In this document: piece by piece, positions 3,001 to 24,765 of the stretch | How positions within the stretch are numbered: position 1 is the first letter of the stretch | Layout of the letters: the number at the start of each line of letters is the position of its first letter | IMG/VR virus record: IMGVR_UViG_3300031673_000006 | Coordinates: 38,758-102,757 of that record | Length of the DNA stretch: 64,000 nt | From: a virus | Strand: one strand, 5' to 3' | The notes under the pieces: generated by a model | Seen by the model: the letters and a program-made list of their open reading frames with translations, nothing else | What the model was told of the DNA's origin: nothing | Databases searched by the model: none | Program-made: the position numbers and the translations under genes

Positions 3001-6000
3001 ACGGAACCCCAACAGAGCGCCACATCCTTGCCCATGCCCAACTCGCTCCGGTCCTGGTAACCGCCAACCGACGTTGGTGGATTCAAAAAGCTCCGAACCT
3101 GTACCGAATCGCGCGTGAAGACGAGAGGCCGCGCCCCCATATCGAGGGTGTTCGTTTCCCGCCAGAGGTCTTCACAGTGCTCTGGTACGAGGACGACGAC
3201 GGCAATCGCTATGAGATGCCCGAGGATGGTCCCGAGCATCCCGAAGGCGCCAAGTACCAACTCAGCCAGTTCCCGAACTACCTGCACGACAGCATGTTGC
3301 AGCTCAACGAGGATGGCACCTCTACGGAGATCATGAGCGGTCAGCGAGGGTTCCCTGAGGACCTTGTGACCTCCATGGTGCGCAGCGGCGAGTGGGACGT
3401 GGGCGACGCCATCATGGTCGGCGGCACGAGCTGCGAGCGCTGCATGAACGTCTTGTGCAATCGCTACTTGGGCCCGGAGGAAGGCTACCCCTACGACTCG
3501 GAAGAGTATTGGCAGTGCGGGACCCGATGCGCCATGTGTGGGCACGTCGACAACACCAACGAGCGGGTGGTCCGACAGCCCCGCTATGCGTCTCCGAGCT
3601 ACGACAGTTACGTCCAGCGCAAGCGCAGAGAAGGCGGCCCTGTGCTGTCCCGTGATGAATGGGAAGCCAAGGTCATGGGCGTCGAAGATGACGCTGACGA
3701 GACCCCTGAGGCTACCCGTGAAGACTGGGAGGCCCGTCGCAATGCTCTCATGGAGGAGCACGGCCTCGACAAGTTCCATTCGTCGTACCGTCCTGACGAG
3801 AAGCACATGACGATTGACCTCATCTCCGTTCCCAAGGAGAACAAGGGTCAAGGCAGTGCTTCAAAGGCCATGAAAGAGACGCTGGCGTGGGCTGACTCCA
3901 ACGGCGTCACGGTCACGTTGTCGCCAACTTCTGAGTTCGGTGCCTCCAAGAAGCGCCTTGAGAAGTGGTATCGCAGCATGGGCTTCGTGCCGAACAAGGG
4001 GCGCAACAAAGACTTCCGGTTCACAGACGCGATGCTCCGCGAGCCGCAGGCCAAAACGGCCACGAAATCCGATGCGGAGAACGAAGATGAGGCGGTGGCG
4101 AAGATGCTCCGCAAGGAGCCCAAACTCAAGCCTCCGCGCTACGACCTTCGTGACAACCGTACTCTCGACGACGACGACCCTGAGGACGATCTTGGCGGTG
4201 GCGATGACGGCGACCGCGACATGTCCATGAAGTGGAACAAGGTGGCGAGCCGCGTGGCTTTCCGTTGGACAGCGATTGGGCCTCGAGTCCCACGACCTGA
4301 ACGCGTTGCTCGACTGTTCTTGGCGGAGGCGCCCCCAAAGGACAAAGCCCAGCCCAAGAGCGGTCCGAGCTTCGAGGAGTGGGTCAAGAACCAGAAATTC
4401 AAGCACCCTGAGACCAGCAACGATGTTGGGTTCTCATCGCTCCCCTCTGACGAGCAGGCCAAGATCCGCGAGAAGTGGAAGGGTCAGCAACAGCCTGAGG
4501 ATGAGAGCGGCAAGGACAAGGGGAAGGGTGATGAGGATGCGAAGCGCACCAAAGAAGACGTGCAGGTCGACCTCAATAACGCGCGCGACGAGATGCGGGA
4601 CCTAGAGTCCCAGATGGGCGACATCGAGAACGAGATCAAAGACCTCGAGGCCAAACTTAAAGGGTTCAAGCAGTACGAAAATCTCTCAGGCGATGCCAAG
4701 AAGCAGATAGACGAGCATGTTCGGGACACCCAACGTGCCATTGGCCGCAAGAAGGATGAACTTGAGGACAAGAAGGAAGAGTTCGACGAAGCGAAGGAGA
4801 AGGTCAAAGAGCTCAGGGCTGAGCGAAAGGACCCCGGCTTCGCTCAAGCCAAGCGCAAGGAGCAGGCTCGCAAGCAGCGAGCCGAACGGGTGAGCCGTGC
4901 TGTCCTCAAGGCGCAAGGAGACATGCAGAAACTCCTCGGTAACGAGGATACCCAGATCCCAGGGGTCCTTGCCAAGCAGATTGCCAAGGCACTCAACAAC
5001 CTCGATGAGTCTGAGGTGGAGTCCTTTTCGATTGATTTTCAGGACACGCTCCAAAAGTTGATGGGGATGGACTCGAGTTCGGATGAGGCACTTGAGTTGG
5101 CGTCTCAAGCCGCCAAGTTTGGTGACCTCCATGGCCTTACTGATCCGGGGGAGTTGGCCGTGCGAATGGCTCAGCTCAGCTATGCGCAGAACGTCGTCGC
5201 CAATCCGATGAACATCGGGGGAAAGCCGGTCGGCGTCACGGAGATGGACAGTGACAAGTACGCCGAACGTGCTCGCGCATCCTACGACCAGTTTCAGAAC
5301 CTGCCGTCCTCTTTGCGTACGCAGGCTGCGAGGCAAGTGACGGAGGCGCTCGAGGGTCTGGACCCTGAGACGCACCGCTCACAGGAACTCAATGCCATTT
5401 TGACGGGCATGAACCTTGCTCAGGTGGCGGCGACGGGGGACTCCCTCCCAGGGCGCCCTCAACCGAGCAAAGGGATGGCGTCAGTCATCCAAGCGATGGC
5501 TGAAAAGGGCGATGTTGATGCCCTCTTCACTACTTCGGAGGACTACTTTGCAGAGCAAGCTCGCGGGAAGATGGAGAAGAGTCTTGATGACATGACGCCA
5601 CTTGAGGTGGCTCAGTTGGCCACACAAGGGGATTCCAATCACGGCTACGCGGGGATGGTCAAATTGATTGAGGAGGAGTCTACGCCTGATGTCATGAGAG
5701 CCATGATGAAAGACTATCTTATCCAAGACATCCTCAACGATCAGTGGGGCGACCGAGCCATCCGCGACACGATGCAGGCTGCGGGTCTTGTGGATGCTGA
5801 TGACCCCGAGGTACGCGCAGGAGTGGTGGGTGAAGCTAACGAGCGCATGAAGCCTCGGATGGAGCAGATGCTTGAGGCGCGGGAGCGTATTGCTCAAGCC
5901 GAGAAAGAAGGCAAAAAACCGGATCCCGAAGACGAGGCCATTGTTGCAGGCGTCTTGGACAAGGAAAAGGGTACCGGTCTACGTGAGAAGGCGAAGGCTG

Positions 6001-7997
6001 TTCTCGATACGATCAAGGACAAGTTCAAGAAGGTCGTCATCTCCCCGGCGAGCGCGGTGCTCCAGCACTTCGTCAACACGGGTGACCGAAAAGTGCTCGA
6101 GCAAGAGACGCTGCCACATCCTGATGAGAAGGCCAAAGCACCTCGTCCCAAGGAAGAGCGTGATGAGGCTCGTGGAGGCGAGAGCACGGCACCGAAGTCG
6201 AAGCGCGAGCGCATGATCGAACGTGTGCGTCTCAAGGCTGAGAGGGTCAAGCTCAAGGCACAGCGCGACAAGGTGAAGGGCGACGAGAAGGGCAAGTACG
6301 ACGAGAAGATCAAGGACCTCGATGGGAAGATCGAGGGCCTGTCGAAAGAGCCTGAGAGCGACGAGTCCGAGAGCGAGCAGCCCAAATCCCGCGAGGATTA
6401 CCGAGCGAAGTTCGATGGCTCGACGTGGGGTGACGACGACGCGGGCACCGAGTACCACGTCGGGGATCTCATCCATAAGGCTGAGTCCAAGGAGGTCGAA
6501 GAGGTTCCGATCGCGGACATCGAGGAGAGCCTCAAGAATATCTCGGCAGACGAGCCGGTGGGTTCGCCCGAGTTCAAAGAGCGAGCTGACAAGGCCGACC
6601 TCAAGTATCCCGTCGTTCTCATGCGACAGGAAGACGGCTCCCTCGAGATCGTGGATGGCTCCCATCGAGCTTGGAAGGCACGCGAGACGAAGCAGCCGTT
6701 GAAGGCTCGGATTCTGGAGCCCGCCGATCTTGAAGATCTTGAGCAGGTCTCCGACGCTGATCGTGAAAAGTGGGACGAAAACGTCGAGTCTCAGGACGAC
6801 GAGGAGCACGGCCCCGGCGACGTTTGGGAGACCGAGCAGGGCAACTGGCGCGCCAAGAACCCGGACGGCGTCCCCAAATCATTCAAGGACAAGGACAAGG
6901 CTGAGATCTACGCCAAGGGCCCAGACGAGAAGGAGTCCGAGGGGAGCGCTGAGAAGCCCAAGGGAGCGCCCGACGAGGCTGAGGGGAAAGGCCAAGCCGA
7001 GAAGGACGAAACGGCTGAGGGAGCGTCTGAGGGAGCGTCTGAGGGCGCCTCTGAGAAGCCCAAACAGCAGCGCCGGGCCGTCAAGGACGAGCACTTCGAC
7101 CGCACGCAGGATGCTGTGGACTCCGTAGGAGCACCCATCCAGGAGAGCTTTACGAAGCTGGCGGACGACCCTGCTTTCCTCAAGATGAGCCCGCAAGAGC
7201 GATACACGCGTCTCGGAGAGACGCTCAAGGAGGCCATTCCTGGTGCTCGAGCGATCCAAGTGCCTGGGGCCGGTTCTAACGCTCCCATCAGCATCACGGT
7301 GCCCGAGGAACACCGAGCTCCCGGCGTGACCTCCCGGCAGAAGATTCGCTTGCAGCCCAACAGCACGGGTGGCGAGGCGTCGGGTAAGGGCGGCCATCTG
7401 GGGCTCGGTGTGAAGGACCTGCTTGAGGCCAAGACGCCCGAGGAGATCAAGAATGCGACTGCGCGGGTCATGGGCACGATGGTGCATGAGATGACCCACA
7501 TTTACGGGCATCATGGGACCAACCCCGATGAGTTTGACGATGAGGACAAGAAGGTGCGCCACATCCGATACATCTCGGACCCGGGGGAGATGCGGGCCCA
7601 CGCGAAGGAATTCGCGTGGCGTTACGCTCAGGACCACCCCGATGAGGGGGAGGTCGACATCGACAAATTAGAAGAGGCTCACAAGGGAGTGGGTAAGGAT
7701 TGGAAGATCCGGCAGTACTTCCAACAGCTCGGTGACAAGGAAGTCCAAGCCAAGTACGACCCTGAGGTCCAGAAGCTCATGCAGGACACGCATGAGGAGA
7801 TGGGCGACTTGGTGCAGCACTACGTCGACGAGTACCGGAAGCGCAATGGCCAACAGCGCAAGATGGGGAGCCGCGTGGCCCAAGCGTGGCTCGAGAAGGA
7901 ACGTCCCGTTCGCATGGCGAATGACTGGTTGGCACACGTCCGTTCGTTCCATCCAGACGACCCAAAACGTCCGATTGTCGTGCTCGACGCGGCTTGA
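3..7997 (+). CDS. Giant polyvalent protein, 5'-partial (ART, ParB-like, Ntn hydrolase, topoisomerase IB, GNAT, zincin)
   Basis: The frame is open from the first complete codon with no stop before the ATG at 69, so the true start probably lies left of the window. Numbered from that ATG, the modules are: an NPDTGNKV motif (46-77); a polyvalent-type ADP-ribosyltransferase-like domain (about 100-230); a ParB-like domain (265-345, GHHR near 320); a C45/penicillin-acylase-like Ntn hydrolase (360-650, Cys365 then NRD); DUF5661 (670-725, EHTDD); a topoisomerase IB core (750-960); a zinc ribbon (1121-1160); a GNAT acetyltransferase (1230-1340); a second NPET motif (1443-1470); a coiled coil and a long helical region; a second ParB-like domain (DGSHR near 2200); and a zincin (HEMTH near 2473, likely third ligand in GEMRAHA). 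Such strings are known from phage polyvalent proteins, thought to be packaged and injected. Function of the whole is inferred. Confidence 0.9.
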   Translation, partial: LEGRTLPSLDAGYGAGRYDPEKMKLATKITIEMSDEDEDAWHKSVRRENKGDRRKQAAYSKEFLDSVQGQRFRNPDTGNKVVFKSLSEAEQRKIHERWEARHRSQDASGPTVTERGRTFETGKPVAFEFLRNTEKAPKAPSDSDPYQQKIEPAGFYVTHKDTDGDPLPGYDTGTISFQNPLVLAVNTNPDGPIYDENSWKAQLERQYGKRGKALTKALQADGYDGIVTVTQVRGKPYTSEIVVLDSEKSVQKGDDRKRRAQEIAGMGYEAAAQLDNDELDSVAFGVKQGVQDLRIDQLKVKYDADLEQAEHAVSREPDRWKEHLDEPIEVRFKDGEFHIEDGHHRYVTAQRMGRDSVKVDLTIDDNPVKKIFEMAGKKMASFHREACIIAGRRFGDSLCLIKNRDRAYDAELEIVHLEKDGTEMAVILDTVTGYMEGVNEHGIAVVNTTLMVVRDEAEGKKKSPNGDKGKKPLTSKDGPKIYRALACDNIEDALESLRTDDNGIRGHTFVADGNKLFSIECSKTHPARVTELDPDRVNTRTNHGVSYPDAGYTHGEDYVSSVVRRWEAQKRLQDIKRPEAAAVALIEAIDEADSPFNPVRTTDKMRTTSQLTIDTTNPRLLLYLIPGHAKVVKRRNTLPDGRKPKIPVRVFKYRNKMEDRKKPVNKDAALIERVAARSLDKLPGGLADEKKPEDFDPEQIAKGTKVELEHTDDRAVAREVAMDHLTEDPKYYDKLETIEKHGARYKSKKKVKTKDGDEMTVYEYSDRQIADRNRGKAERIEKLRKQMKKLQTKVRKDVNSKDEKTRDLALAVGLMDETFERVGNDGSAKEGHFGVTTWRVKHMTFGKGGVTITYVGKSGVDQKKKVTNPRIVSGLKDACKDKEPNACVLSVTASEVNEYLKPLDITAKDIRGFHANQKMKEELRKVRKGKLPEDPKEKEKKLKDEFKSALEATADAVGHEASTLRSQYLVPGLEDDYMRDGTVNESHTKKGSTLHTAALDGTPTERHILAHAQLAPVLVTANRRWWIQKAPNLYRIAREDERPRPHIEGVRFPPEVFTVLWYEDDDGNRYEMPEDGPEHPEGAKYQLSQFPNYLHDSMLQLNEDGTSTEIMSGQRGFPEDLVTSMVRSGEWDVGDAIMVGGTSCERCMNVLCNRYLGPEEGYPYDSEEYWQCGTRCAMCGHVDNTNERVVRQPRYASPSYDSYVQRKRREGGPVLSRDEWEAKVMGVEDDADETPEATREDWEARRNALMEEHGLDKFHSSYRPDEKHMTIDLISVPKENKGQGSASKAMKETLAWADSNGVTVTLSPTSEFGASKKRLEKWYRSMGFVPNKGRNKDFRFTDAMLREPQAKTATKSDAENEDEAVAKMLRKEPKLKPPRYDLRDNRTLDDDDPEDDLGGGDDGDRDMSMKWNKVASRVAFRWTAIGPRVPRPERVARLFLAEAPPKDKAQPKSGPSFEEWVKNQKFKHPETSNDVGFSSLPSDEQAKIREKWKGQQQPEDESGKDKGKGDEDAKRTKEDVQVDLNNARDEMRDLESQMGDIENEIKDLEAKLKGFKQYENLSGDAKKQIDEHVRDTQRAIGRKKDELEDKKEEFDEAKEKVKELRAERKDPGFAQAKRKEQARKQRAERVSRAVLKAQGDMQKLLGNEDTQIPGVLAKQIAKALNNLDESEVESFSIDFQDTLQKLMGMDSSSDEALELASQAAKFGDLHGLTDPGELAVRMAQLSYAQNVVANPMNIGGKPVGVTEMDSDKYAERARASYDQFQNLPSSLRTQAARQVTEALEGLDPETHRSQELNAILTGMNLAQVAATGDSLPGRPQPSKGMASVIQAMAEKGDVDALFTTSEDYFAEQARGKMEKSLDDMTPLEVAQLATQGDSNHGYAGMVKLIEEESTPDVMRAMMKDYLIQDILNDQWGDRAIRDTMQAAGLVDADDPEVRAGVVGEANERMKPRMEQMLEARERIAQAEKEGKKPDPEDEAIVAGVLDKEKGTGLREKAKAVLDTIKDKFKKVVISPASAVLQHFVNTGDRKVLEQETLPHPDEKAKAPRPKEERDEARGGESTAPKSKRERMIERVRLKAERVKLKAQRDKVKGDEKGKYDEKIKDLDGKIEGLSKEPESDESESEQPKSREDYRAKFDGSTWGDDDAGTEYHVGDLIHKAESKEVEEVPIADIEESLKNISADEPVGSPEFKERADKADLKYPVVLMRQEDGSLEIVDGSHRAWKARETKQPLKARILEPADLEDLEQVSDADREKWDENVESQDDEEHGPGDVWETEQGNWRAKNPDGVPKSFKDKDKAEIYAKGPDEKESEGSAEKPKGAPDEAEGKGQAEKDETAEGASEGASEGASEKPKQQRRAVKDEHFDRTQDAVDSVGAPIQESFTKLADDPAFLKMSPQERYTRLGETLKEAIPGARAIQVPGAGSNAPISITVPEEHRAPGVTSRQKIRLQPNSTGGEASGKGGHLGLGVKDLLEAKTPEEIKNATARVMGTMVHEMTHIYGHHGTNPDEFDDEDKKVRHIRYISDPGEMRAHAKEFAWRYAQDHPDEGEVDIDKLEEAHKGVGKDWKIRQYFQQLGDKEVQAKYDPEVQKLMQDTHEEMGDLVQHYVDEYRKRNGQQRKMGSRVAQAWLEKERPVRMANDWLAHVRSFHPDDPKRPIVVLDAA

Positions 7998-8009
7998 AGG
8001 TCGAAAAAC

Positions 8010-8056
8010 CTTCCTTAGAAACCTCCTTTGGCCCTCGGTCAAGGTTTCTAAGGAAG
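8010..8056 (+). terminator. Perfect 15-bp inverted repeat after the giant gene
   Basis: Arms at 8010-8024 and 8042-8056 are perfectly complementary (CTTCCTTAGAAACCT and its complement) around a 17-nt loop, 13 nt after the stop codon. No U-tract follows, so it may be a factor-assisted terminator or an mRNA 3'-end stabiliser rather than a classic intrinsic terminator. Confidence 0.6.
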
Positions 8057-8311
8057 CAAACCATCCCTAGCAGGCCCTAAGTAGGTTTTCCGTCCTCAGA
8101 AGGTGCGGTTGAACTTCCTTGGAGGGGTCTAGGTGCTCAGACCTTCCCTGAGAACCTTGGTCGAGGTCTGACCGAGGGTGTCGGGGAAGGTTTGTGAACT
8201 GAAAAGTGCGGATTATTCCGTTTTTCACCTTATAGCGCGACCCAAATAGACGAAGGGCTGCCCCTCCTCTCGGAGGGTCTCTGTGCGCCCATTTTCGCCA
8301 GGAGAAATTCA
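8057..8311 (+). other. Non-coding region with nested inverted repeats
   Basis: No convincing gene lies between 7998 and 8311. Beyond the 8010-8056 hairpin it holds TCAGACCT/AGGTCTGA (8137-8144 and 8164-8171) and ACCTTCCC/GGGAAGGT (8141-8148 and 8184-8191). These arms overlap, so they would be alternative folds. A CGGA-TTAT-TCCG mini-hairpin followed by five Ts ends at 8225. The region separates the giant gene from the head module and probably holds a terminator followed by a promoter; a structured leader RNA is possible. Confidence 0.5.
8218..8235 (+). promoter_or_regulatory. Putative late-type promoter element
   Basis: CCGTTTTTCACCTTATAG resembles elements upstream of other structural units (27114, 40606, 61842). 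TTATAG could serve as a -10 hexamer. It lies about 75 nt before the first head-module gene. Confidence 0.35.
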
Positions 8312-8887: not shown

Positions 8888-9886
8888 ATGCCCAGTCTCT
8901 CCCTACAGCAGACCAGAACGTACATCGACAGGCTCGGTGATCTCGAAAACGAGCTCACCCGATCCTGTCGTGTCGCAGAGGTCATGTCCAAAGGCGCCGA
9001 CAAAGATCAGGCGGCCGCGGGCGGTCGTCTGAAAGACGCCTGCGACTCGGCGCGGGAGCACCTCAAGTACGTCGCGGAGGCGAAGACACGCCTGCTCGAG
9101 TTCGATGGGTTCCTGCATGCGCAAAGCCAGACCATCCGTGAGTCGCTCGATCGACCACACATGGTCTCGTTCATGAACGAGGTGGGCTCCAAACTGGGGC
9201 GCTCCATGGAAAGTCACGTCGAAGCCATCGTCAGCGGTGCCATCGACGCCCTTCGCAGAGTCGCCGGCTCCATCAAGGACATGCGCGATGCGAAGGCTGG
9301 TACCGAGGGCGACGCGTCCGCCAAGGGGAGTGCCAAAGCACTCGACAAGATCTGTGACGCTGCTGAGAAGGCCATTCGAGAAGGGGTCAAGGAGCGCAAA
9401 GCTGCTCCGGCACCTGCTCCTGAGGTCGAAGTTGAAGTCGAAGTCGAACTCGACGAGGAGACCGAAAAAATGGCAGCACATGGTTACAACCTGACAGCAG
9501 GCCTTCCTCCCGAGTTCTTGGAGAATATCCAGAAGAAAAAGGATGAAGCCAAGGGCAAGAAGGACGACGACAAAGAGGACGAGAAAGACGCGGGCAAGAA
9601 AGCCTACGTCCAAGTCCAATACCTGACGGCGGGCCTTCCTCCTGAGTTCCTGGAGAACATCCAGAAGAAAAAGGACGAAGCCAAGGGCAAGAAGGACGAC
9701 GACAAAGAGGACGAGAAAGACGCGGGCAAGAAAGCCCACGGCTACACCCTCACCGCCGACTCCTTGACCCCCGGCAATGAATCCAAAGGCCCCAAGGACG
9801 AGGGCGAAGAAGACGAGGGTTGGGTTCCGGGTCATCGCACCGATGGCAAGGACAAGAAGGCCCACGGCTACACGCTTACTGCGTAG
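8888..9886 (+). CDS. Putative virion protein with internal duplication and HGY(T/N)LTA motifs
   Basis: 332 residues from the ATG at 8888. An in-frame ATG at 8876 would add four residues. The second is preferred because the sequence before it (TGGGACGCCTC) nearly matches that before the unambiguous start at 40648. The N-terminal 170 residues look like long helices. A run of Glu/Val (VEVEVEVEVELDEE) leads to a lysine/acid-rich tail holding two near-identical copies of a 38-residue block that starts LTAGLPPEFLENIQKKK. HGYNLTA or HGYTLTA occurs three times and a variant (VQYLTA) once, at block boundaries and the C-terminus. The highly charged tail fits a scaffold-like or protease-processed head protein. 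Family unknown. Confidence 0.75.
   Translation: MPSLSLQQTRTYIDRLGDLENELTRSCRVAEVMSKGADKDQAAAGGRLKDACDSAREHLKYVAEAKTRLLEFDGFLHAQSQTIRESLDRPHMVSFMNEVGSKLGRSMESHVEAIVSGAIDALRRVAGSIKDMRDAKAGTEGDASAKGSAKALDKICDAAEKAIREGVKERKAAPAPAPEVEVEVEVELDEETEKMAAHGYNLTAGLPPEFLENIQKKKDEAKGKKDDDKEDEKDAGKKAYVQVQYLTAGLPPEFLENIQKKKDEAKGKKDDDKEDEKDAGKKAHGYTLTADSLTPGNESKGPKDEGEEDEGWVPGHRTDGKDKKAHGYTLTA
9491..9736 (+). repeat. Two-copy tandem repeat, period 132 bp, 114-bp units
   Basis: Units 9491-9604 and 9623-9736 differ at only a few, mostly synonymous, positions and encode the same LTAGLPPEF...GKK block. The near identity at DNA level implies a recent duplication inside the gene. Confidence 0.9.
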
Positions 9887-14372: not shown

Positions 14373-15248
14373 ATGACCGGTGTATCCAACGCTGTGAAGC
14401 AAAAACTCATCTCCGAGTACATCAAGACCCCCGCGGGTCGTGCCAAGCTCGCTGCCTCTCTGACGCAGCCGCTCCGTACTCGGCGAGACTACACCTCGGT
14501 AGGCCGCAAGACCTTTTTGGTCGAGCAGCTCCCCGATGGTGCCCTGCCCATCTACGACAAAGACCCGGACGTGACAGCGTACGTGGTCGGCGAGGAAGGC
14601 GAGAACATCATCGCCGTCACCAAGCCACGTCGTGTGATTTTTCCGTTGTTCGAGATCGCCTCGAACCCGGAGATTCCACTCACCCAAATCAAGGAGCGTC
14701 GTTTCGATCTGATCGAGCGTGCTCAGGATCTTGCGCGTGCGCAGATCCAGGCTGCCGAAGACGAGCGCGTCTTCGCTGTCCTTGATGCCATCGCCACCAA
14801 CGGGTTCGACTCGATCCCCGGTGGTACCAACCCCGACATTCCAGTGGTCGCTCCGATCTCTGGTGCGGTGCTGGCCGACGCCTTCGCTCTCATCGAGCGC
14901 CACGACCTCCGGGTCGCGCGCGTGTACATGAACGCGCGGGACTACGCCGACATCAGGAAGTTTGGCCGCGATATTCTCGACATCGAGAGTCAGGCCACGC
15001 TGCTCAAGACCGGCCTCCAGGCTACCCTTTGGGGTGCCCAGGTCATCACGAGTCGCATCGTTCCTGCTGGCACCGTCTATGTATGTTGCGAACCTGAAAT
15101 GTTCGGTAGGATTCCGGTCCGCACCGAGCTGACCGTCCTCTCTGCGGACGATCCCAAGGCTCGGACCATTGGCTTCAGTGTGTTCGAAAACTTGGGTATT
15201 GGTGCGTATAACCCGCGTGGGTTGACTCGCCTCACCGTGACCCGCTAG
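14373..15248 (+). CDS. Major capsid protein (HK97-type fold)
   Basis: 291 residues with a strong ribosome binding site (AAGGAGAGAG). The pattern is that of short HK97-fold capsid proteins: a helical N-arm, RRDYTSVGRKTFLVEQL, a YVVGEEG E-loop-like strand, FEIASNPEIPLTQIKERR, a long spine helix (FDLIERAQDLARAQIQAAED), a P-domain region and the closing TELTVLSAD...GFSVFENLGIGAYNPRG. There is no obvious N-terminal delta domain, so scaffolding probably depends on the separate acidic proteins upstream. It is the last gene before a strong terminator. The fold call is by sequence pattern and operon position. Confidence 0.85.
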   Translation: MTGVSNAVKQKLISEYIKTPAGRAKLAASLTQPLRTRRDYTSVGRKTFLVEQLPDGALPIYDKDPDVTAYVVGEEGENIIAVTKPRRVIFPLFEIASNPEIPLTQIKERRFDLIERAQDLARAQIQAAEDERVFAVLDAIATNGFDSIPGGTNPDIPVVAPISGAVLADAFALIERHDLRVARVYMNARDYADIRKFGRDILDIESQATLLKTGLQATLWGAQVITSRIVPAGTVYVCCEPEMFGRIPVRTELTVLSADDPKARTIGFSVFENLGIGAYNPRGLTRLTVTR

Positions 15249-15351: not shown

Positions 15352-16326
15352 ATGCGTGCCATCCCGTGTCCCATCACCAAAGCCGAACTCGAGCAGCTCT
15401 ATCTCGGCGAGAAACTCACCGACGACGAGGTCGCAGTCCGTATCGGCAAGGAGGCGACAGCCAAGCGTGTGCGCTCATGGAGGAAGCGTCTGGGCATTCG
15501 CACGCTCCAGCGGTGGGAACGGTACGACGTGCCTCCGATCGAGGGGCGTCTCAAGTCGCTGCTCGTGGGATCGATGCTCGGTGACGGGAGGCTCGTCCAC
15601 AGGACGCACGCGACCCACTACACGGAGAACCACGAGGACGACCAGAAACCCTATCTTGAGTGGAAAATGGCTCAGTGGGGCTCCTGGGTCCGCGTGGAGC
15701 CCAAGCACGTAGACAAGACGAAGGACGGCAAGACATACCGGTCTTGGCGGTTCCACACGGTCGCCCATGAGGCCCTGAACGACTGGCAAGCGTTGTTCTA
15801 CGAGAACCGTGATCGAGGGTGGAAGATCCTTGTGCCCGAACTCGTGGATCACGTCGATGAATTCGCGCTCGCCATCTGGTACCTCGATGACGGCTACGCG
15901 GGGTGGTGGCCCGAGTACCTTTTCGGTTCGACAGCCGAGAGCCGCAAAGTGGCATGGGCGATCTTTGAGAAGTTCGGGCTCAAACCTCGGTGGCAATTCG
16001 TCAAAGAGATGGAGGGACGTGAAACTGGCAAGTTCCACATGGAGCGCGAGGACACAGCCGAGCGTTTTCTTGAGATCGTGCGCCCGCACGTCCCGGCCTG
16101 CATGGCCTACAAGGTCAAGAGCTTCGGTTACAACAGCGGGCGCAACAACATCATCAAGGGCAAGCTCGACCCCGAGGTCTTGCGCGAGCTGGCGGCCGAG
16201 GGGATTCCGATCCGACGCATGGCCAAGTTGTTCGGGGTCGGGGGCGCGACCATCGACCGACATCTCAAGAAGCATGGCATCGAGCACGCGAGAACCAAAG
16301 GGAACCCGCGCCACAGGACCCCATGA
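15352..16326 (+). CDS. LAGLIDADG homing endonuclease with flanking HTH modules
   Basis: 324 residues. Two LAGLIDADG-like helices are visible, LLVGSMLGDGRL (about 66-77) and FALAIWYLDDGYAG (about 171-184), each with the acidic residue near the end that binds the catalytic metal. An N-terminal helix-turn-helix-like segment (LTDDEVAVRIG) and a C-terminal one (IPIRRMAKLFGVGGATIDRHL) probably help bind the target. The gene sits just after the capsid terminator, in intergenic DNA, as free-standing homing endonucleases often do. Its last codons (encoding ARTKGNPRHR) lie in a 30-bp direct repeat that recurs at 23876. The stop overlaps the next start (ATGA). Confidence 0.88.
   Translation: MRAIPCPITKAELEQLYLGEKLTDDEVAVRIGKEATAKRVRSWRKRLGIRTLQRWERYDVPPIEGRLKSLLVGSMLGDGRLVHRTHATHYTENHEDDQKPYLEWKMAQWGSWVRVEPKHVDKTKDGKTYRSWRFHTVAHEALNDWQALFYENRDRGWKILVPELVDHVDEFALAIWYLDDGYAGWWPEYLFGSTAESRKVAWAIFEKFGLKPRWQFVKEMEGRETGKFHMEREDTAERFLEIVRPHVPACMAYKVKSFGYNSGRNNIIKGKLDPEVLRELAAEGIPIRRMAKLFGVGGATIDRHLKKHGIEHARTKGNPRHRTP
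16288..16317 (+). repeat. Direct repeat A, left copy
   Basis: This 30-bp segment at the 3' end of the LAGLIDADG gene matches 23876-23905 at 27 of 30 positions. Together the copies bracket the repeat-protein/helicase island. Confidence 0.85.
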
Positions 16327-16956: not shown

Positions 16957-17565
16957 ATGCCACAGCATTCTCTAAAAGAGATTCAACGCAGCATCCGGGA
17001 GTTCTACAAGGAGCATGGAAAACGCCCGACGAGTCGGAGCTCCGGGGAGGGCCTGAACTGGAATGGGGTGGATCAGTGGCTCCGCAAAAACGACTACGGG
17101 TCTGTTGCTCAGGTCTCTCAGGATCTGGGGATCTCAGGGCCCCATGCCGATCATGGCCTTGCAAAGATCAAGAAGGGCATTCGGAAGTTCAAGGCGGAGC
17201 ACGGGAAAATCCCTAGTGTTTTGACGGGAGACGCCACGGAGGACGTGGGGTACAGGACGAGCTGGGTGAACGTGAACAACTGGCTCCGTACACACGGGCA
17301 CGGCTCTCTCGCTCAGCTATGTCAGAGGATGGGGGTTGCGTCTTCGGTGAGCCATTCGCTGGAGGCTATCCGTGTTGGCGTCGCACTTTTTGAGAAGGAG
17401 CACGGGCGCCCTCCTCGTCAACGTGACGGGGACGCGACCTCTTATGTGACCTACAGGACTACGTGGCGAGCGGTGGATGCGTGGTTGCGCCGGAACGGAA
17501 CTTCTCTTGGGGCATCGAGCACCGACAGGAAAAAGCACACGACTGACAAGGACAAAAAATCATGA
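16957..17565 (+). CDS. Three-copy repeat protein paired with the SF2 helicase
   Basis: 202 residues with three copies of a helical module of about 60-65 residues: IREFYKEHGKRP...VDQWLRKNDYGSVAQVSQDLG, then two variants carrying an insertion with GDAT...YRTSWV or YRTTWR before the NNWLR or DAWLR helix. The same long variant (GDATPYVGYEATW then VNAYLRG) ends the helicase encoded next, and a shorter version forms the arrays of three further genes. The module resembles the helicase-associated domain in length and helical pattern, but that link is an inference. The tail is basic (DRKKHTTDKDKKS). The stop overlaps the helicase start (ATGA), so the two are probably made together. Confidence 0.8.
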   Translation: MPQHSLKEIQRSIREFYKEHGKRPTSRSSGEGLNWNGVDQWLRKNDYGSVAQVSQDLGISGPHADHGLAKIKKGIRKFKAEHGKIPSVLTGDATEDVGYRTSWVNVNNWLRTHGHGSLAQLCQRMGVASSVSHSLEAIRVGVALFEKEHGRPPRQRDGDATSYVTYRTTWRAVDAWLRRNGTSLGASSTDRKKHTTDKDKKS

Positions 17566-19586
17566 AATTCCGCAAGCTCCGCAAGTACCAAGCCAAGCAC
17601 AAGCGCGCGATCCTCCAGGCCCTCCACGAGGACCGGGATGTGCTCTACAACGCCCCGACAGGTGCGGGGAAGGGCACGGTGGGAACCTCGGTCATCGACG
17701 ATCTCAGCCGGGGGGACTGGAACGGTGTCGTGGTGGTCGTTCCGATGCACACCATCCGGGACAGTTTCATGTACAACGGCGCGGGTTCGCCTGACTTGTT
17801 CGATCTCGAGATCTACAACGGCGAACCGAGCACGAAACGGAGGTTCGCGAAGTGGATGCGCAAGCACTGGCAGGACCGGTCGTTCGCCTCGGTGATCTGC
17901 CGGCAGTCCTTCGTGCACGTTTCGTTGCCTCAAGATCTCACCGGTTGGACCCTCGTCATTGACGAGGCCCACGGCAGCACGATCGAGACGGGAGATGATG
18001 CGCCGCTCATGGGGATGAAGCGCAAAGAGTGGACCGATCGAGGGGGGCGCCTCGTCGTGATCTCGGCGACGCCCTACCGCGGCGACGGTCTCCAAGTCTA
18101 CGACGACACCTTTGTCCAAGTGCGTCGCTCCATCGCGGAGCATTCGCTGCCTGACGAGGACGGCAAGCGGTACGCGCCGAAACATTTCGAGATTCGCGCG
18201 GTGGGTCTCACGGGCTACCAGGTCCGAACGAAGGACGAGCTCTACGGGGAAAAGGCGCCGCGCCACATCACCCCCACTGCCATCAGAAAGATGGTCCGGG
18301 AGTGGAAGGGTGCGGGGTGTCCCAAGACCGTTATCATCGTCCCGGCCGGGGAGTCTGGCTCGTGGAGTTATCAAGTAGTCGAGGCGTTCGAGCGTGAGAA
18401 GGTTCCGTACCGAGGCGGTACCGCGGCGCAGGTCCACAACGCAGTCGGTACTGGTAAGGAGTGCCAAGACAAGCTCCTGGCACTCCTCGCCCGTGAGCGC
18501 GAAGTGACGCACATCGACCAGTCCCAGGCGGATGTGATCGTCGCCTGCGCGCGTTTCGATGAAGGGACCGACTGGCCCTTGTGCAGTCACATCTACCACG
18601 TCGGGTTTCCGAAGACGATCCGGCGCACCAATCAGCGGTGGGGTCGTTCTTTCCGTAGCAAGGCCGGGATCAAGGGACATCCGCACCCGGATGTGGCGCA
18701 GATCTGTTTCTTCGTGCCGGAGTTGACGAAGGAGATGCGCGACCAGATGGCGGTGCCCGCGTTTGAGCGGCTCCACCTTCGTATGGCGCTTCTGATGGCC
18801 GGCCACCTCGAGGACCACGAGGCTGGCCAGATGCTCGTGTCTGTGATCCGGGACGTGGTCAAGATGAACACGCCCTCGGTCCCAGTCAACGTGGACCTCG
18901 ACGAGATCGAGGCGCGGCTGCAGCCCACGGATGAGGAGATGCAGGCCGTCTCTGTCGCGTTCAAGTATCTGCGACCCGCCGAGAAGGGGCTCAGCCTTGC
19001 GGAAGTGGACCGTGTCGCCGAGCGCCATGGGTTCGACGACCGGTGCAAGATGCTGCTGCGGCTCCGGGTAGCTGCGGCGGTCAAGGACCCGAAGACGCGC
19101 GCGGCGATGTTCGAGGCGCTTCACCATGCGTGCCGCAAGATGTTCAAGAAAGCCAAGAGTACGAAGGGTGACAAACGCAAGTCCTCGGTGTCGAGCCCCA
19201 TCGATCTGTTGCCGGGAGTTTTCAATGAGCTGTTCGACGAGTACGTCGTGCGAGAGCACAGGGGACTCATCAAATTCGACCCGCCGATGACGAAGAAGAA
19301 CTGGCGGATGCTTTCGCGCCTGACTGGTCGGGACCCCAAGGAGATCGATCAGAGCATGCGGAAGGTCATCGGCATCTTGCACCGCACCGACGACATCATG
19401 GCCGGCACCGTGAAGTACATCGAGGAGCATAGTAAGCCCCCCACGGACTCATCGGGGGATGCCACGCCCTACGTTGGGTACGAAGCGACTTGGAAGTCCG
19501 TCAACGCTTACCTCCGGGGTCACCCGCTATCCAAGGGCGCCGTCGAGGCGTGGCGCCAGAGGAACATGGAGGCGCCGGGGCGGTGA
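17562..19586 (+). CDS. SF2 DEAH-type helicase/ATPase with C-terminal repeat module
   Basis: 674 residues. Visible motifs are QxxH-like RKYQAKH (Q-motif region), Walker A NAPTGAGKGT (about 30-39), DEAH (VIDEAHG near 135), SATPYRGDG (near 167), a RecA2 segment with FDEGTDWPL, and an arginine-finger motif VI, RRTNQRWGRSFR (near 355). This is the architecture of DNA or RNA unwinding/translocating SF2 enzymes such as the restriction-helicase-like group. The region after 400 is helical. Residues about 600-655 form a copy of the long repeat variant (GDATPYVGYEATW, VNAYLRG) found in the gene before it. ATGA overlap upstream and GTGA overlap downstream place it in one operon with the repeat proteins. 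Substrate unknown. Confidence 0.85.
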   Translation: MKFRKLRKYQAKHKRAILQALHEDRDVLYNAPTGAGKGTVGTSVIDDLSRGDWNGVVVVVPMHTIRDSFMYNGAGSPDLFDLEIYNGEPSTKRRFAKWMRKHWQDRSFASVICRQSFVHVSLPQDLTGWTLVIDEAHGSTIETGDDAPLMGMKRKEWTDRGGRLVVISATPYRGDGLQVYDDTFVQVRRSIAEHSLPDEDGKRYAPKHFEIRAVGLTGYQVRTKDELYGEKAPRHITPTAIRKMVREWKGAGCPKTVIIVPAGESGSWSYQVVEAFEREKVPYRGGTAAQVHNAVGTGKECQDKLLALLAREREVTHIDQSQADVIVACARFDEGTDWPLCSHIYHVGFPKTIRRTNQRWGRSFRSKAGIKGHPHPDVAQICFFVPELTKEMRDQMAVPAFERLHLRMALLMAGHLEDHEAGQMLVSVIRDVVKMNTPSVPVNVDLDEIEARLQPTDEEMQAVSVAFKYLRPAEKGLSLAEVDRVAERHGFDDRCKMLLRLRVAAAVKDPKTRAAMFEALHHACRKMFKKAKSTKGDKRKSSVSSPIDLLPGVFNELFDEYVVREHRGLIKFDPPMTKKNWRMLSRLTGRDPKEIDQSMRKVIGILHRTDDIMAGTVKYIEEHSKPPTDSSGDATPYVGYEATWKSVNAYLRGHPLSKGAVEAWRQRNMEAPGR

Positions 19587-21211
19587 GGCAAGAGGCTCAC
19601 AACTGCTACCAGCTTGCTTGTCTCATCGGGGTCGTGGAGCCTCGTACATCTCGCAAAAAGAGCGTGAACAGAACGATGAAGGGGGTGGAGGGCGAGATCC
19701 TCGCTTTCTTCAAGAAGCACGGGCGACGCCCAAGAGACAAAGATGGGTTCCGCAACGTGGACGCGTGGTTGATGCGGCGTGGGAGTTCGATCCACAAGAT
19801 CTGCGAGAAGCTGGGTCTTCCTGGTGGCCGGGATTTTGGGCGCACGAAGGGAAGCATCGAACGAAAAATCAGGAAGTTCTACGACCGGGAGGGTAGGCGG
19901 CCCAAGAACAGGGAGATGGTGGACGAAAGCCGGTGGCTTGCCTACCACCACAAGATGTCTCTCCATGATCTATGTGACGAAATGGGGCTTCCCACAGAGA
20001 AGGTCCTTCGCACGATTACACGAGTCCGCAAAGAGATCCGGGAGTTCTATGCCCGTGAAGGGCGTCGTCCGACCAATAAGGAGCTGCTTGGGTGGCTCAA
20101 TTTCTTGAGAAGAAAAAACACGACTCTATCCAAACTCTGCGACAAGATGGGGCTTCCCGAAGGCCACAGAAAGCGTCGTTCAATGGCACGGCTCCGCGAG
20201 GTGCTTCAAGCATTTTTCGACGAGCACGGACGGCGCCCCACTACTGAAGAGATGGGGGCTTGGTGCGGTTGGCTTCGAGCACACCACAAAGGCAATACGC
20301 TCTACGGCGTCTGCAATGAGATGGGACTGCCTTCTCGGAGCGGGCAATCCGGGAAAGCCAGTGTGAGGTACTCCAAGAAGGAGGTGCTCCAAGAGGTCCA
20401 AAAGTTTTACGACCGTGAGAAACGGCGCCCGATGAGCAAGGAGGTACGGAAATGTGCTGGCTGGCTCAAGCGACGTGGCAGCAGTCTTCGAGAGCTGTGC
20501 GATGAGATGGGACTCCCCGCAGACGGGTACACCATGGAGATTGCTCGACAGGAACTCGGGAAATTTAACGAGACCCACGGGCATCGGCCGAGACACCAGG
20601 ATCTCCCCAAACTCGCGCGGTGGCTGCGGTCGCAGGGCATTTCGTTGCCTCGGCTCGGTGAAAAAATGGGGCTCCCTGCGAAACGCCAAGAGGTCTCTGG
20701 CAGGACGATGAACTCCGTCCGGGCCGAGATCCGTAAATTCGTCAAGGCACATGGCCGTCGACCGGGCGTCCATGACATGCAGAAGATCGACAGTTGGCTG
20801 CGGGTCCGGGGTACGGGGCTGCCTGCGGTGTGCGACGAGATGGGGTACGCACCGCTCATGCGAAGGGATCGCACTGAGGAAGAAGCACGGCAGGTGGTGC
20901 TCCGTTTCTACAAGGAGAACGGAAACCGCCCGCGCAAGGTTGACCTGCCGGTGTGGCAGGGATGGTTTGAGCATCGAGGATCTTCATTGCGCAAGTTTTG
21001 TGATGCACTTGGTCTGCCGAAGGAGTGTGAGTACGACAGGACCCTCAAGAAGGCACGCATCGCGATGAAGGCATTTTTCAAGGAGCACGGGCACCGTCCC
21101 GTACAGTCGGACCTTTGGGCTTGGGACGGTTGGCTACGGAACAACCACGGTCTGTCCGTCTCGAAACTCTGCGACGAACTTGGGTTTCCCAAGAAGGGAC
21201 GCCGGCCATGA
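19583..21211 (+). CDS. Modular repeat protein, nine HGRRP-WLR-LCDEMGLP repeats
   Basis: 542 residues. GTG 19583 is chosen because it overlaps the helicase TGA and because it gives an N-terminal module (NCYQLACLIGVVEP) matching those of the next two genes (SCIEVAALLGLHERP and NCTEIAAILGLHELP). After it come nine repeats of about 50-63 residues, each with helix 1 (EIRKFYDREG), the HGRRP turn, a variable stretch, helix 2 (xxWLRxxG) and helix 3 (SSLRELCDEMGLP), then a linker often reading RTxxx. The repeats are basic in helix 1 and the turn and acidic in helix 3. No catalytic motif is seen. Modular nucleic-acid or protein binding is inferred. Ends with an ATGA overlap. Confidence 0.85.
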   Translation: MRQEAHNCYQLACLIGVVEPRTSRKKSVNRTMKGVEGEILAFFKKHGRRPRDKDGFRNVDAWLMRRGSSIHKICEKLGLPGGRDFGRTKGSIERKIRKFYDREGRRPKNREMVDESRWLAYHHKMSLHDLCDEMGLPTEKVLRTITRVRKEIREFYAREGRRPTNKELLGWLNFLRRKNTTLSKLCDKMGLPEGHRKRRSMARLREVLQAFFDEHGRRPTTEEMGAWCGWLRAHHKGNTLYGVCNEMGLPSRSGQSGKASVRYSKKEVLQEVQKFYDREKRRPMSKEVRKCAGWLKRRGSSLRELCDEMGLPADGYTMEIARQELGKFNETHGHRPRHQDLPKLARWLRSQGISLPRLGEKMGLPAKRQEVSGRTMNSVRAEIRKFVKAHGRRPGVHDMQKIDSWLRVRGTGLPAVCDEMGYAPLMRRDRTEEEARQVVLRFYKENGNRPRKVDLPVWQGWFEHRGSSLRKFCDALGLPKECEYDRTLKKARIAMKAFFKEHGHRPVQSDLWAWDGWLRNNHGLSVSKLCDELGFPKKGRRP

Positions 21212-22095
21212 GCACCCAAGAACTCCGCGCTCGAAGTTGCATTGAGGTTGCGGCACTCCTCGGGCTCCACGAGCGACCGATACGCTCGAGGACGCTGGAG
21301 AGCGCGCGTGCGGAGGTTTTAGCCTCTTATGAGAAGCACGGGAGACGCCCTTCGGAGCAGCGTTTGAGTGCCACGGGTCAGTGGCTTCGGTATCGCGGAT
21401 CATCTCTCCGGCGTGTCTGCGACGAGCTGGGCTTGCCTGGTGGGACCAACCTAGGCCGAACGAAGGAGGGAGCGAAAACGGTAACTCAAGGTTTTTTTGA
21501 CAAGCATGGACGCCGCCCTGTGGCACAAGATCTTCGTGCGTGGGATTCGTGGCTGCGCGGGCGGGGGTCTTCGCTTGTCGTCCTCTGTGACGAGATGGGG
21601 CTTCCTGAGCGCACCAGAATCATCCGAAGGAAAAGCAGCGCAACAAGGATGATCCGAGCTTTCTACCAGGAACAGGGCCGGTGCCCCGAGCCAGGAGAGA
21701 TTCCTGTGCTGGATCGTTGGCTACATAAGCACGCGTTGGTGTTGTCTCTTCTTTGCGACGAGTTAAGCCTCCCCTCTGATTGGGGCGACGCGAAAAAAAC
21801 CATTCAAGAGTTCTTCAACAAGCACGGGAGACGCCCGAAGTCCACGGAGCTACCGCAGTGGGCCCGCTGGCTGCGTGCGCAGGGGTCTTCCCTCTCCCGC
21901 CTCTGTGACGAGCTGGAATTTCCCGGTCCCGGGGTGCCCAGAACCAAGCAAATGGCGCAGCATGTAATTCGAGCTTTCGTTCAGAAAAACGGGCACCGAC
22001 CGTCCGAAGCGAGCCTTCCTGATTGGTACGAATGGTTGCGGCATGTGCCTGGGGTTTCGCTTCAGCAACTCTGCAATGAGATGGGGGTGCCTTGA
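21208..22095 (+). CDS. Modular repeat protein, five repeats
   Basis: 295 residues. The ATG overlaps the preceding TGA (ATGA). The N-terminal module contains SCIEVAALLGLHERP. Five repeats follow, with signature segments KHGRRPSEQRL, KHGRRPVAQDL, EQGRCPEPGEI, KHGRRPKSTEL and KNGHRPSEASL, each followed by WLR or WLH and an LCDE(L/M)-type helix. The third repeat is the most divergent (GRCP, LSLLCDELSLP). The protein is a shorter paralogue of its two neighbours, and the operon order suggests that all three act with the helicase. It ends with a TTGA overlap with the next gene. Function unknown. Confidence 0.82.
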   Translation: MSTQELRARSCIEVAALLGLHERPIRSRTLESARAEVLASYEKHGRRPSEQRLSATGQWLRYRGSSLRRVCDELGLPGGTNLGRTKEGAKTVTQGFFDKHGRRPVAQDLRAWDSWLRGRGSSLVVLCDEMGLPERTRIIRRKSSATRMIRAFYQEQGRCPEPGEIPVLDRWLHKHALVLSLLCDELSLPSDWGDAKKTIQEFFNKHGRRPKSTELPQWARWLRAQGSSLSRLCDELEFPGPGVPRTKQMAQHVIRAFVQKNGHRPSEASLPDWYEWLRHVPGVSLQQLCNEMGVP

Positions 22096-23858
22096 GCTCT
22101 TTGGATGGACACGCGAGTAACTGCACTGAGATCGCGGCCATCCTCGGCCTCCACGAGCTTCCGAAGCGCAGGACGATGGAGGGGGCGCGGGTGGAGGTCC
22201 GGGAGTTCTACGAGAAGCATGGTCGTCGTCCTTGGTGCACAGACCTCATGAATTTGGACGCGTGGCTGCGCAAGAAAAGGACGAATTTGCCTGACCTGTG
22301 CGATGAGCTGGGACTCCCTGGGGGGAAGAACCTGCGTCGCACGATGGAAGAGGTCCGCCAAGAGGTCCAAGCGTTTTTCGATGAACACGGTCGTCGCCCG
22401 AGTTGTCACGAAATGGCTTCTACCGACCGCTGGCTCCGAGTGCAGGGCACCGCTCTTCGCAAGTTATGCGACGAGATGGGGCTCCCCGGCGGTGCGGTGT
22501 TCGGTCGCACGATGGAAGGGGCCCGCCAAGAGATTCAGGCGTTCTTCGAGGAGCATGGCCGCCGCCCCTACGAGGCTGATTTGAATGGCGCCAGTCTTTG
22601 GCTGCGGAAGGAAGGAACAAGTTTACAAAAACTGTGCGACGAGATGGGCCTCCCGAAGCATCGGGACAGTTGGTCAGCAGAAAGAGCACGCCAAGAAGTC
22701 CAGGCTTTTTTTGACGAGCACGGTCGGCGCCCTTTGGTAAAAGAGAACACAGCACTGGGGCACTGGCTGACCAGACGTGGCACGAGCTTGTCCAAGTTGT
22801 GCGACGAGATGGGGTTGCCTTGGCCTTCCCGCTCCAAGTACACGAGGGAGAAGATACGCCCGAAAATCCAAGCATTTTTCGATGAGCACGGACGCCGCCC
22901 GATAGATAAGGAGGTGAATGGCATCAGCCTCTGGTTGCGGAGGGTCGGGGCGACCCTTCGAGATGTCTGCAATGAGATGGAACTCCCCGGAGGTCTGGTG
23001 CTCGATCGGACGATGGAAGGGGCCCGCCAAGAGATTCAGGCGTTCTTCGAGGAGCATGGCACACGTCCTAGAGTGGTTGACAAGAAGGCGCTGGCATCTT
23101 GGTTACGGGGACAAGGAACAAATTTACGAAAACTGTGCGACGAGATGGGCCTCCCGAAGATCATTCGGGCTCGGAACGCGTCCACGGAAGAAGTAGTCAA
23201 CGAAGCGACCAAAGAGATCCAAGCGTTTTTTGATGAGCATGGCCGCCGCCCTTCGGTGAGAGAGAGAGCGGCACTCGCCGCGACTCTTCGATCGCGTGCT
23301 TCCTCCATCCCCCAAATTTGCGAAGCGATGGGGCTTCCAAAACGATCGCGCTCAAAACGTACGCTGGAAGGGGCCCGCCAAGAGATTCAGGCGTTCTTCG
23401 AGGAGCATGGCCGCCGCCCTGCCTGCGCCGAGATGGGTGGCCTGTCGAACTGGTCGGCTACGCAGGGCACGACTTTGCGCAAGCTGTGCGATGAGTTGGA
23501 ACTCCCTGGCAATCGCCGTTATGACCGGACGATAGAGGGTGTTCGACGAGAGATTCAGGCGTTCTTCGAGGAGCATGGCCGCCGCCCAAAGCAGAAAGAG
23601 GGCCATTTCAACACCCTCGATCAGTGGCTTTTTCGTCACGGAAGTTCTATCCCCAAACTCTGCAATGAGATGGGGCTCCCCGGAGGTCTGGTGCTCGATC
23701 GGACGATGGAGGGGGCGCGCCAAGAGATTCAAGCATTTTTCGACGAGCACGGCCGGCGCCCCATGGCGAAGGAGCTGCGGCCACTCAATAAGTGGCTCTT
23801 GGTCCAGACCCCGCGCTCGACCGTGGCGAAACTGTGCCATGAGATGGGACTGCCTTGA
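22092..23858 (+). CDS. Modular repeat protein, ten repeats
   Basis: 588 residues, starting at TTG 22092, which overlaps the previous TGA (TTGA). The N-terminus (NCTEIAAILGLHELP) aligns with the two upstream paralogues, which supports this rare start. Ten repeats of 50-60 residues follow, most with the form ARQEIQAFFxEHGRRP, a variable 9-11 residue stretch, WLRxxGT, LxKLCDEMGLP and a linker ending RTMEG. Residues just after GRRP differ in every repeat (WCTD, SCHE, YEAD, LVKE, IDKE and so on), while the framework is nearly constant. Several repeats are almost identical at DNA level, indicating recent duplication or gene conversion. No enzymatic motif is seen. Confidence 0.85.
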   Translation: MSSLDGHASNCTEIAAILGLHELPKRRTMEGARVEVREFYEKHGRRPWCTDLMNLDAWLRKKRTNLPDLCDELGLPGGKNLRRTMEEVRQEVQAFFDEHGRRPSCHEMASTDRWLRVQGTALRKLCDEMGLPGGAVFGRTMEGARQEIQAFFEEHGRRPYEADLNGASLWLRKEGTSLQKLCDEMGLPKHRDSWSAERARQEVQAFFDEHGRRPLVKENTALGHWLTRRGTSLSKLCDEMGLPWPSRSKYTREKIRPKIQAFFDEHGRRPIDKEVNGISLWLRRVGATLRDVCNEMELPGGLVLDRTMEGARQEIQAFFEEHGTRPRVVDKKALASWLRGQGTNLRKLCDEMGLPKIIRARNASTEEVVNEATKEIQAFFDEHGRRPSVRERAALAATLRSRASSIPQICEAMGLPKRSRSKRTLEGARQEIQAFFEEHGRRPACAEMGGLSNWSATQGTTLRKLCDELELPGNRRYDRTIEGVRREIQAFFEEHGRRPKQKEGHFNTLDQWLFRHGSSIPKLCNEMGLPGGLVLDRTMEGARQEIQAFFDEHGRRPMAKELRPLNKWLLVQTPRSTVAKLCHEMGLP

Positions 23859-24219: not shown

Positions 24220-24765
24220 TCAGGCGTCAGCTTGAGGCTCTTGTTGTTCGTCGCCGGTGAGGATAGCTAGAGTTCGCGCCACGTCCTCTGGTTGGATGCC
24301 TCGAGCCCAGCTCGTGCGCACGAGATAGGGCGCCATGTGGGCGAAAGCACCGTCTCCCATGTCATCGAGGATGACGAAGTTCTCGACGTTGAGGTGCTTG
24401 TTCTTTACGAGCCAGACTTCGATTTCGAGTCCACGGAGCCCACGGTTCGCCAGGCCTGGCGGCATCTCATTGGAGAGTGGTGTGCGTCCGATGACTTCGC
24501 CGGTGAAGCCTCGGGAACTGAGGTAGCGCTGCATGTCTTCGGGAGTGCAGTGGTAGCGCCACGAGGATGAGATGACGACCTTCGCGTCACCGAGGGCCAC
24601 GATGGCGTTGAGGCGCTCCACGGAGGTGGGGTTGATCATGCGGGTCCACCAGTAGTCGTCTTTGGGGTCCGGTGCTGTGGACGTGTCCGCGTCCAGGTCT
24701 GGATTGGACCCGAAGTACTCGGCGCTGTTGAGCACCCCGTCCATGTCTAGGAACACGACGCGCAT
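24220..24765 (-). CDS. HAD-superfamily phosphatase of the Swiss Army Knife RNA-repair type
   Basis: 181 residues. The N-terminus FLDMDGVLNSAEYF carries the HAD DxDG nucleophile motif, VVISSSWR is motif II, and FVILDDM holds the acidic motif. The order and spacing, with NPTSVERLNAIVALGDAKVV before SSSWR and GRTP and RGLEIEVWL in between, match the HAD domain of SAK RNA-repair proteins, which remove phosphates from RNA ends or nucleotides. Here it stands alone. It is translated with a small membrane protein upstream (TGATG overlap). With KptA at 38.1 kb it suggests phage interest in RNA-end healing. Substrate unproven. Confidence 0.8.
   Translation of the reverse strand: MRVVFLDMDGVLNSAEYFGSNPDLDADTSTAPDPKDDYWWTRMINPTSVERLNAIVALGDAKVVISSSWRYHCTPEDMQRYLSSRGFTGEVIGRTPLSNEMPPGLANRGLRGLEIEVWLVKNKHLNVENFVILDDMGDGAFAHMAPYLVRTSWARGIQPEDVARTLAILTGDEQQEPQADA

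Follow-up and report, generated by a model that had tools for sequence, protein, structure and literature searches.

An operon in which an SF2 helicase gene is flanked by genes of short tandem repeats raises the question of what the repeats do for the helicase. The operon lies in a 64,000-nucleotide stretch of DNA (the window) from the 102.7-kb record of a giant bacterial virus. As argued below, we consider it probable that interchangeable arrays of tri-helical, putatively DNA-binding modules direct or anchor the helicase, which would be an accessory SF2 DNA translocase. The features of the locus, in window coordinates, are as follows.

16957-23858 (+): operon of five genes, A, H, B, C and D
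16957-17565 (+): gene A, 202 aa, three long-variant (GDAT-type) repeats found with an HMM derived from gene D; basic, pI 10.0
17562-19586 (+): gene H, 674 aa, SF2 helicase (ResIII/DEAH) by PF04851 (1.1e-6), phrog_16 (2e-10) and motifs
About residues 605-655 of gene H (+): C-terminal long-variant repeat, found by long-variant alignment
19583-21211 (+): gene B, 542 aa, half-repeat cap and nine short-type repeats, net charge about +55
21208-22095 (+): gene C, 295 aa, half-repeat cap and five short-type repeats
22092-23858 (+): gene D, 588 aa, half-repeat cap and ten short-type repeats (PF18780, 7.1e-23)
19583-19666 (B), 21208-21285 (C) and 22092-22163 (D) (+): N-terminal half-repeat caps, helix-3-like
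22170-22655 (+): repeats D1-D3, the segment modelled with AlphaFold2

All five frames are open on the plus strand, and the successive junctions are the ATGA, GTGA, ATGA and TTGA overlaps that the earlier note had reported, with H starting inside the ATGA that it shares with A. The HMM built on gene D recovered the arrays as they had been described, giving 28 copies of a module of about 50 residues: three in A, one at the end of the helicase, nine in B, five in C and ten in D. Single short-type repeats gave domain E-values of about 1e-20 to 1e-30, which excludes a chance origin. The repeat in H was weak with this HMM (E 0.08) and was recognized through the alignment of the longer variant found in A and H, KPPTxSSGDATPYVGYExTW, which carries a GDATPYVGY insertion; the repeats of A can also be aligned with those fused to a related helicase, L122. 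Genes B, C and D each open with a half-repeat cap, xCxxxAxLLGLxE, that resembles helix 3 of the module. The arrays are strongly basic, and a search of the whole 102.7-kb record found no repeats outside the operon.

The suggestion that no known family is similar to the module did not survive comparison with Pfam. HNH_repeat (PF18780, homing endonuclease associated repeat) shares the length class and helix-GRxP-helix pattern of the module, and at the whole-protein level D (81.1 bits, 7.1e-23) and B (54.9 bits, 1e-14) exceed its cut-off of 26; A and C fall below it, and no single repeat reaches it, the best copy scoring 19.3 bits. In profile-profile comparisons with hhalign, for which the HNH_repeat and HA proteins were taken from plasmids, the module matched its own long variant with a probability of 97% and HNH_repeat with 93-94%, the latter match being confined to the first 31 residues. 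The C-terminal half of the module, WLRxxGSSLxxLCDEMGLP, replaces FGSWNEALEAAGL of HNH_repeat and aligns poorly with it. The window arrays differ from HNH_repeat also in being coupled to an SF2 helicase and in lacking an HNH or other nuclease domain, none having been found by Pfam search in A-D or H. Stand-alone HNH_repeat arrays occur on Bacillus subtilis plasmids as well, and one of these (L029, NZ_CP061871.1, 1462-3282) has about ten or more units and no nuclease domain in the part examined. The HA family (PF03457) scored 20.6 bits (5.5e-4) with gene B only, under its cut-off of 28.4, and gave no match in the window's virus record. No PDB entry was credibly related to the module by sequence, and our searches turned up no experimental structure of the repeat. 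A tblastn search of INPHARED with gene D returned nothing at 1e-3; the repeat consensus gave two weak matches, from Agrobacterium JP1 and Enterococcus, and the JP1 protein was rejected as a relative since it showed no repeat on inspection.

Gene H is an SF2 (ResIII/DEAH) helicase, scoring 29.1 bits against the PF04851 cut-off of 22.5 and carrying the motifs APTGAGKG (Walker A), DEAH, SATPY, FDEGTD and QRWGR. The strongest evidence is supplied by its relatives. Window-type arrays are known from three contigs only. On the 82-kb contig of L004, a helicase (74%) and a B gene (78%) are followed by a gene of 160 aa that carries two repeats of the long variant; genes C and D are absent. In L017, a single 945-aa frame (5319-8156) joins the helicase (34%) to seven window-type repeats. 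In further loci, obtained by a scan with these three helicases, the helicase is fused to four GDAT-type repeats (L122-124), to five HA repeats (L126; PF03457, 1.3e-42) or to a fourth type of repeat (L130-132), which in the Tunturiibacter phage Tunturi_5 forms the separate genes gp99 and gp98 after the helicase. In L128 the helicase precedes six separate HA-array genes (up to 3.5e-53), the first junctions being coupled by ATGA, and L127 and L129 have helicases with other C-termini. A midpoint-rooted tree of the helicase core (15 rows) places a 100/100 branch between the phage proteins and three actinobacterial HA helicases, with the repeat types clustered. From L017, the further loci just listed and this tree, we conclude that helicases of a single lineage have come to be associated with four or more kinds of repeat, either as fusions or as separate genes, so that the association with an SF2 helicase noted in the window proves recurrent.

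The architecture itself has precedents. Bacterial HA helicases consist of an SF2 core followed by short tandem domains, an arrangement also found in the window operon and, as a fusion, in L017, and the window's clade includes genuine HA-repeat members (L126, L128); the window repeats, however, are not HA by sequence, and the helicase core lies on a fully supported branch separate from the actinobacterial ones. On a Tsukamurella plasmid (L033, NZ_LR134455.1, 2918-9559), an HA helicase is grouped with three HA-array genes and an exonuclease-like gene, RS11125, in which a DxETTG motif was seen by eye. In Tunturi_5, whose head protein is 48% identical, gp100-gp99-gp98 comprise a related SF2 helicase and two tandem-repeat genes, but with a different repeat type (WLxxNGYxGL...FxHI) that has no detectable profile-profile similarity to the module. 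As both the Tsukamurella plasmid and Tunturi_5 have comparable split arrays, the general combination of a helicase with split arrays is not new. Scans based on short exact patterns found no relatives, either in IMG/VR with D and A as single proteins or in 84,980 species genomes, which were searched twice using the helicase pair plus a subset of repeats; within the limits of such patterns, the close family is therefore known only from viral contigs.

We used AlphaFold2 to predict the structure of repeats D1-D3 (mean pLDDT 82, pTM 0.41). The model has three helices per unit, at residues 3-17, 27-35 and 40-46 in the first unit, and bears out the expectation of a compact module, while the predicted packing between units is uncertain at this pTM. 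A model of the 945-aa L017 fusion reached a pLDDT of 39, too low to be used. With the D1-D3 model, a PDB fold search gave no credible match and none at E ≤ 0.001. In a viral fold library, the best or frequent matches came from giant viruses and included SF2 helicases (Pithovirus LCPAC001, Klosneuvirus, Terrestrivirus and others) and a helicase-associated-domain protein; these are suggestive, although their E-values, all above 1e-3, are not significant (top match E 6.5e-3, probability 0.93, with low TM-scores). The proposed likeness to helicase-associated domains thus holds for architecture and is favoured by the fold matches, and stands less firmly at the level of sequence, where hhalign gave about 50% against HA. 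Among 31 short repeats, variation peaks at positions 22-36, the loop after GRRP and helix 2 (mean entropy 2.50 bits versus 1.33 elsewhere; first of 50 circular shifts), and helix 3 (LCDEMGLP) is almost invariant. Estimated from the sequence, the variable face lies 164-171 degrees from the hydrophobic face in each helix, which places the variable positions on the exposed side; the earlier note had suggested testing whether they concentrate on one face. TALE, PPR and mTERF proteins likewise consist of helical modules in tandem, whose exposed residues differ from copy to copy. The window module works like these in layout, but differs from them in length, three-helix unit and sequence, and none of them was among the Pfam matches.

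Gene B and its L004 orthologue allowed us to ask how far the variable residues are constrained. The two proteins are 78% identical and retain all nine repeats in order, repeat by repeat. At the eight most variable positions, orthologous repeats are 68% identical and non-orthologous ones 13%, and omega (dN/dS) is 0.17 overall, 0.09 in the framework and 0.24 at variable positions. Copies that differ strongly within an array have therefore been held once made. Values of dN/dS between paralogous repeats were saturated (pS about 0.7) and uninformative about positive selection. The conserved copy-specific residues are compatible with a TALE-like recognition code, though no proof of one, and would also fit an ordinary constraint on a basic, putative DNA-binding surface. 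This leads to the first alternative, in which the repeats grip DNA without sequence preference, raising only the processivity or local concentration of the helicase, and helix 2 varies through relaxed constraint. The highly basic arrays, variation on the face away from the core (common to helical repeats in general) and the exchange of repeat families on one helicase clade, which is easiest if affinity alone matters, are all as such a grip would have them. Relaxed constraint, on the other hand, is hard to reconcile with an omega of 0.24 rather than near 1 and with copy identity kept over nine repeats; moreover, helix 3 keeps its exposed polar residues (D/E 45, 46) almost unchanged whereas helix 2 is variable, and four separate array genes are more than a grip needs. 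We regard a purely generic grip as possible, if somewhat doubtful.

A further component came from the relatives. Eight of them carry beside the helicase or the arrays a conserved protein of 230-260 aa, here called gene X, at the following coordinates.

L128:13437-14138: gene X
L126:10697-11413: gene X
L017:8093-8806: gene X
L122:10429-11244: gene X
L129:4842-5558: gene X
L130:9991-10791: gene X
L131:9506-10270: gene X
L132:3803-4549: gene X

It lies at the 3' end of the helicase in L017, L122-124, L126 and L129 and among the array genes in L128; the copies directly after the helicase in L130-132 are remote homologues (E 6e-6 to 1e-4). In our reading, its pattern (IGVNxNxxII..N, WxxGD, GVLVYD, FLLVxN) resembles that of a class I methyltransferase fold. 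The members scanned had no PHROG, PDB or clear Pfam match, a single match at 0.005 linking the L130 copy to DUF5886. A reverse scan with gene X returned only contigs already known from the helicase scan, and is a weak test because its patterns came from those contigs. Within the sequence searched, gene X is absent from the window's record, from G001 and from Tunturi_5. DUF5131/radical SAM proteins follow gene X in two loci of the Tunturi-repeat type (L130:10848-11552, L131:10236-10997). A DNA methylase-like protein (N6_N4_Mtase, weak) is found upstream of the helicase at L017:3199-5175, where it shares a frame with a LAGLIDADG-like part, and at L004:3-794; G001 has a second methylase-like copy. 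An upstream methylase was considered as a conserved partner on the basis of L017 and L004 and was set aside, as the window's record has none.

Gene X probably completes the system in the eight relatives as a methyltransferase-like partner, and the helicase, its different repeat arrays and this frequent extra gene together suggest an undescribed DNA-targeting machine. In its most elaborate form, this would be a sequence-guided system of large phages in which an SF2 translocase and interchangeable DNA-reading arrays, usually with the methyltransferase-like partner, mark or clear chosen host or rival DNA, a proposal that we make tentatively and hold to be rather unlikely as a whole. In the related case of an interference module directed against rival elements or the host, foreign DNA would be marked by the arrays and then modified or cleared by the helicase, together with gene X in the loci that have it. 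The accessory location described below, several different arrays per locus, the methyltransferase-like partner and the methylase-like genes upstream in L017 and L004 speak for interference. It is opposed by the lack of a nuclease in the locus and by PADLOC, which reported no defence system, only weak generic helicase matches (PbeA 4e-7, DpdF 0.004) and nothing beyond noise for the arrays. No sign of interference, or of the host takeover that the earlier note had also suggested, was seen, and interference appears unlikely.

A gene for a Bacillus phage G type major head protein (14373-15248) lies upstream of the operon, and directly 3' of it is a LAGLIDADG endonuclease gene (15352-16326; PF03161, 1e-21) with an HTH-like end. 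In the window, and likewise in L017 and L129, the helicase locus is downstream of the head gene; in L126 it is far away. In the sequence around the head gene, none of the 80 nearest head-gene loci, about 31 of which have at least 10 kb downstream of that gene, matched the helicase or the repeat profiles (window, HNH, HA and Tunturi types). We therefore rejected the idea that the operon is conserved in this phage group, and regard the locus as accessory. It often sits in the variable region after the head gene, a region that also hosts LAGLIDADG endonucleases. The L004 contig has no intact head gene of this type, only pieces of 41, 17 and 14 residues.

G001:C1:65550-65687 (-): head-protein piece
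L004:858-908 (-): head-protein piece
L004:1497-1538 (+): head-protein piece

This neighbourhood bears on a homing-type origin, in which the repeats would be HNH_repeat-like accessories of mobile genes, moving with the LAGLIDADG endonuclease as a selfish module without serving the phage. PF18780 is the closest curated sequence family, the endonuclease gene is just upstream of the operon, L017 has a similar gene, and similar frames come right after the head gene in 32 related loci. Yet A-D and H lack a nuclease domain, members of the helicase family are not regularly accompanied by homing endonucleases, their partners being other repeats and gene X, and the L126 locus, far from the head gene, points to sites without one. 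We consider a homing module very unlikely.

Purifying selection on arrays within the phage's own operon would also be expected of an origin-binding or replication/repair helicase, whose arrays would bind repeats in its own genome and load the helicase, in the manner of UL9, the SF2 origin-binding protein of herpesvirus. SF2 helicases that include a sequence-specific DNA-binding part do exist, according to one report (PMC12543377). Nevertheless, the window, 64 of the 102.7 kb, shows no iteron-like tandem array beyond a few short repeats. An accessory locus is also unexpected for a replication function, although in the 80 closest phages, where it is absent around the head gene, it could lie elsewhere. 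A role at the origin is, in our view, distinctly improbable.

The favoured explanation, an accessory translocase directed or anchored by its arrays, can be put as a mechanism. H would act as an ATP-driven SF2 motor working with the arrays of A, B, C and D and with its own C-terminal repeat. Each module would be a three-helix, helix-turn-helix-like repeat, and we infer its putative DNA binding from fold type, charge and family names. The arrays would lie lengthwise along double-stranded DNA, every repeat supplying an exposed helix-2/loop surface, and once bound would load the motor onto, or anchor it at, particular DNA. More tentatively, binding might be partly sequence-specific and the motor might remodel or displace occupants of the targeted DNA. 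The probabilities given here are not exclusive shares, since the alternatives overlap this explanation and differ from it mainly in specificity and purpose.

Although annotation often records HA and HNH repeats, none of the literature searched dealt with their function. The locus and its relatives offer an experimental handle: a single clade of helicases, repeats of four types in both fused and split form, and a conserved extra gene, to which the orthologous nine-repeat pair of B and L004, with its copy-specific residues kept, can be added. The targets of the arrays, once known, would give function to widespread repeat families, and if the arrays read sequence, a natural modular DNA-binding scaffold would be gained.

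Scans for promoters and terminators gave signals no higher than in shuffled sequences. On the opposite strand, the operon is adjoined by a HAD_SAK_2 phosphatase-like gene (24220-24765, minus strand; 1e-27). A tandem repeat of 132 bp (1.9 copies, 94% matches) lies within a coding region at 9489-9740 of the window.
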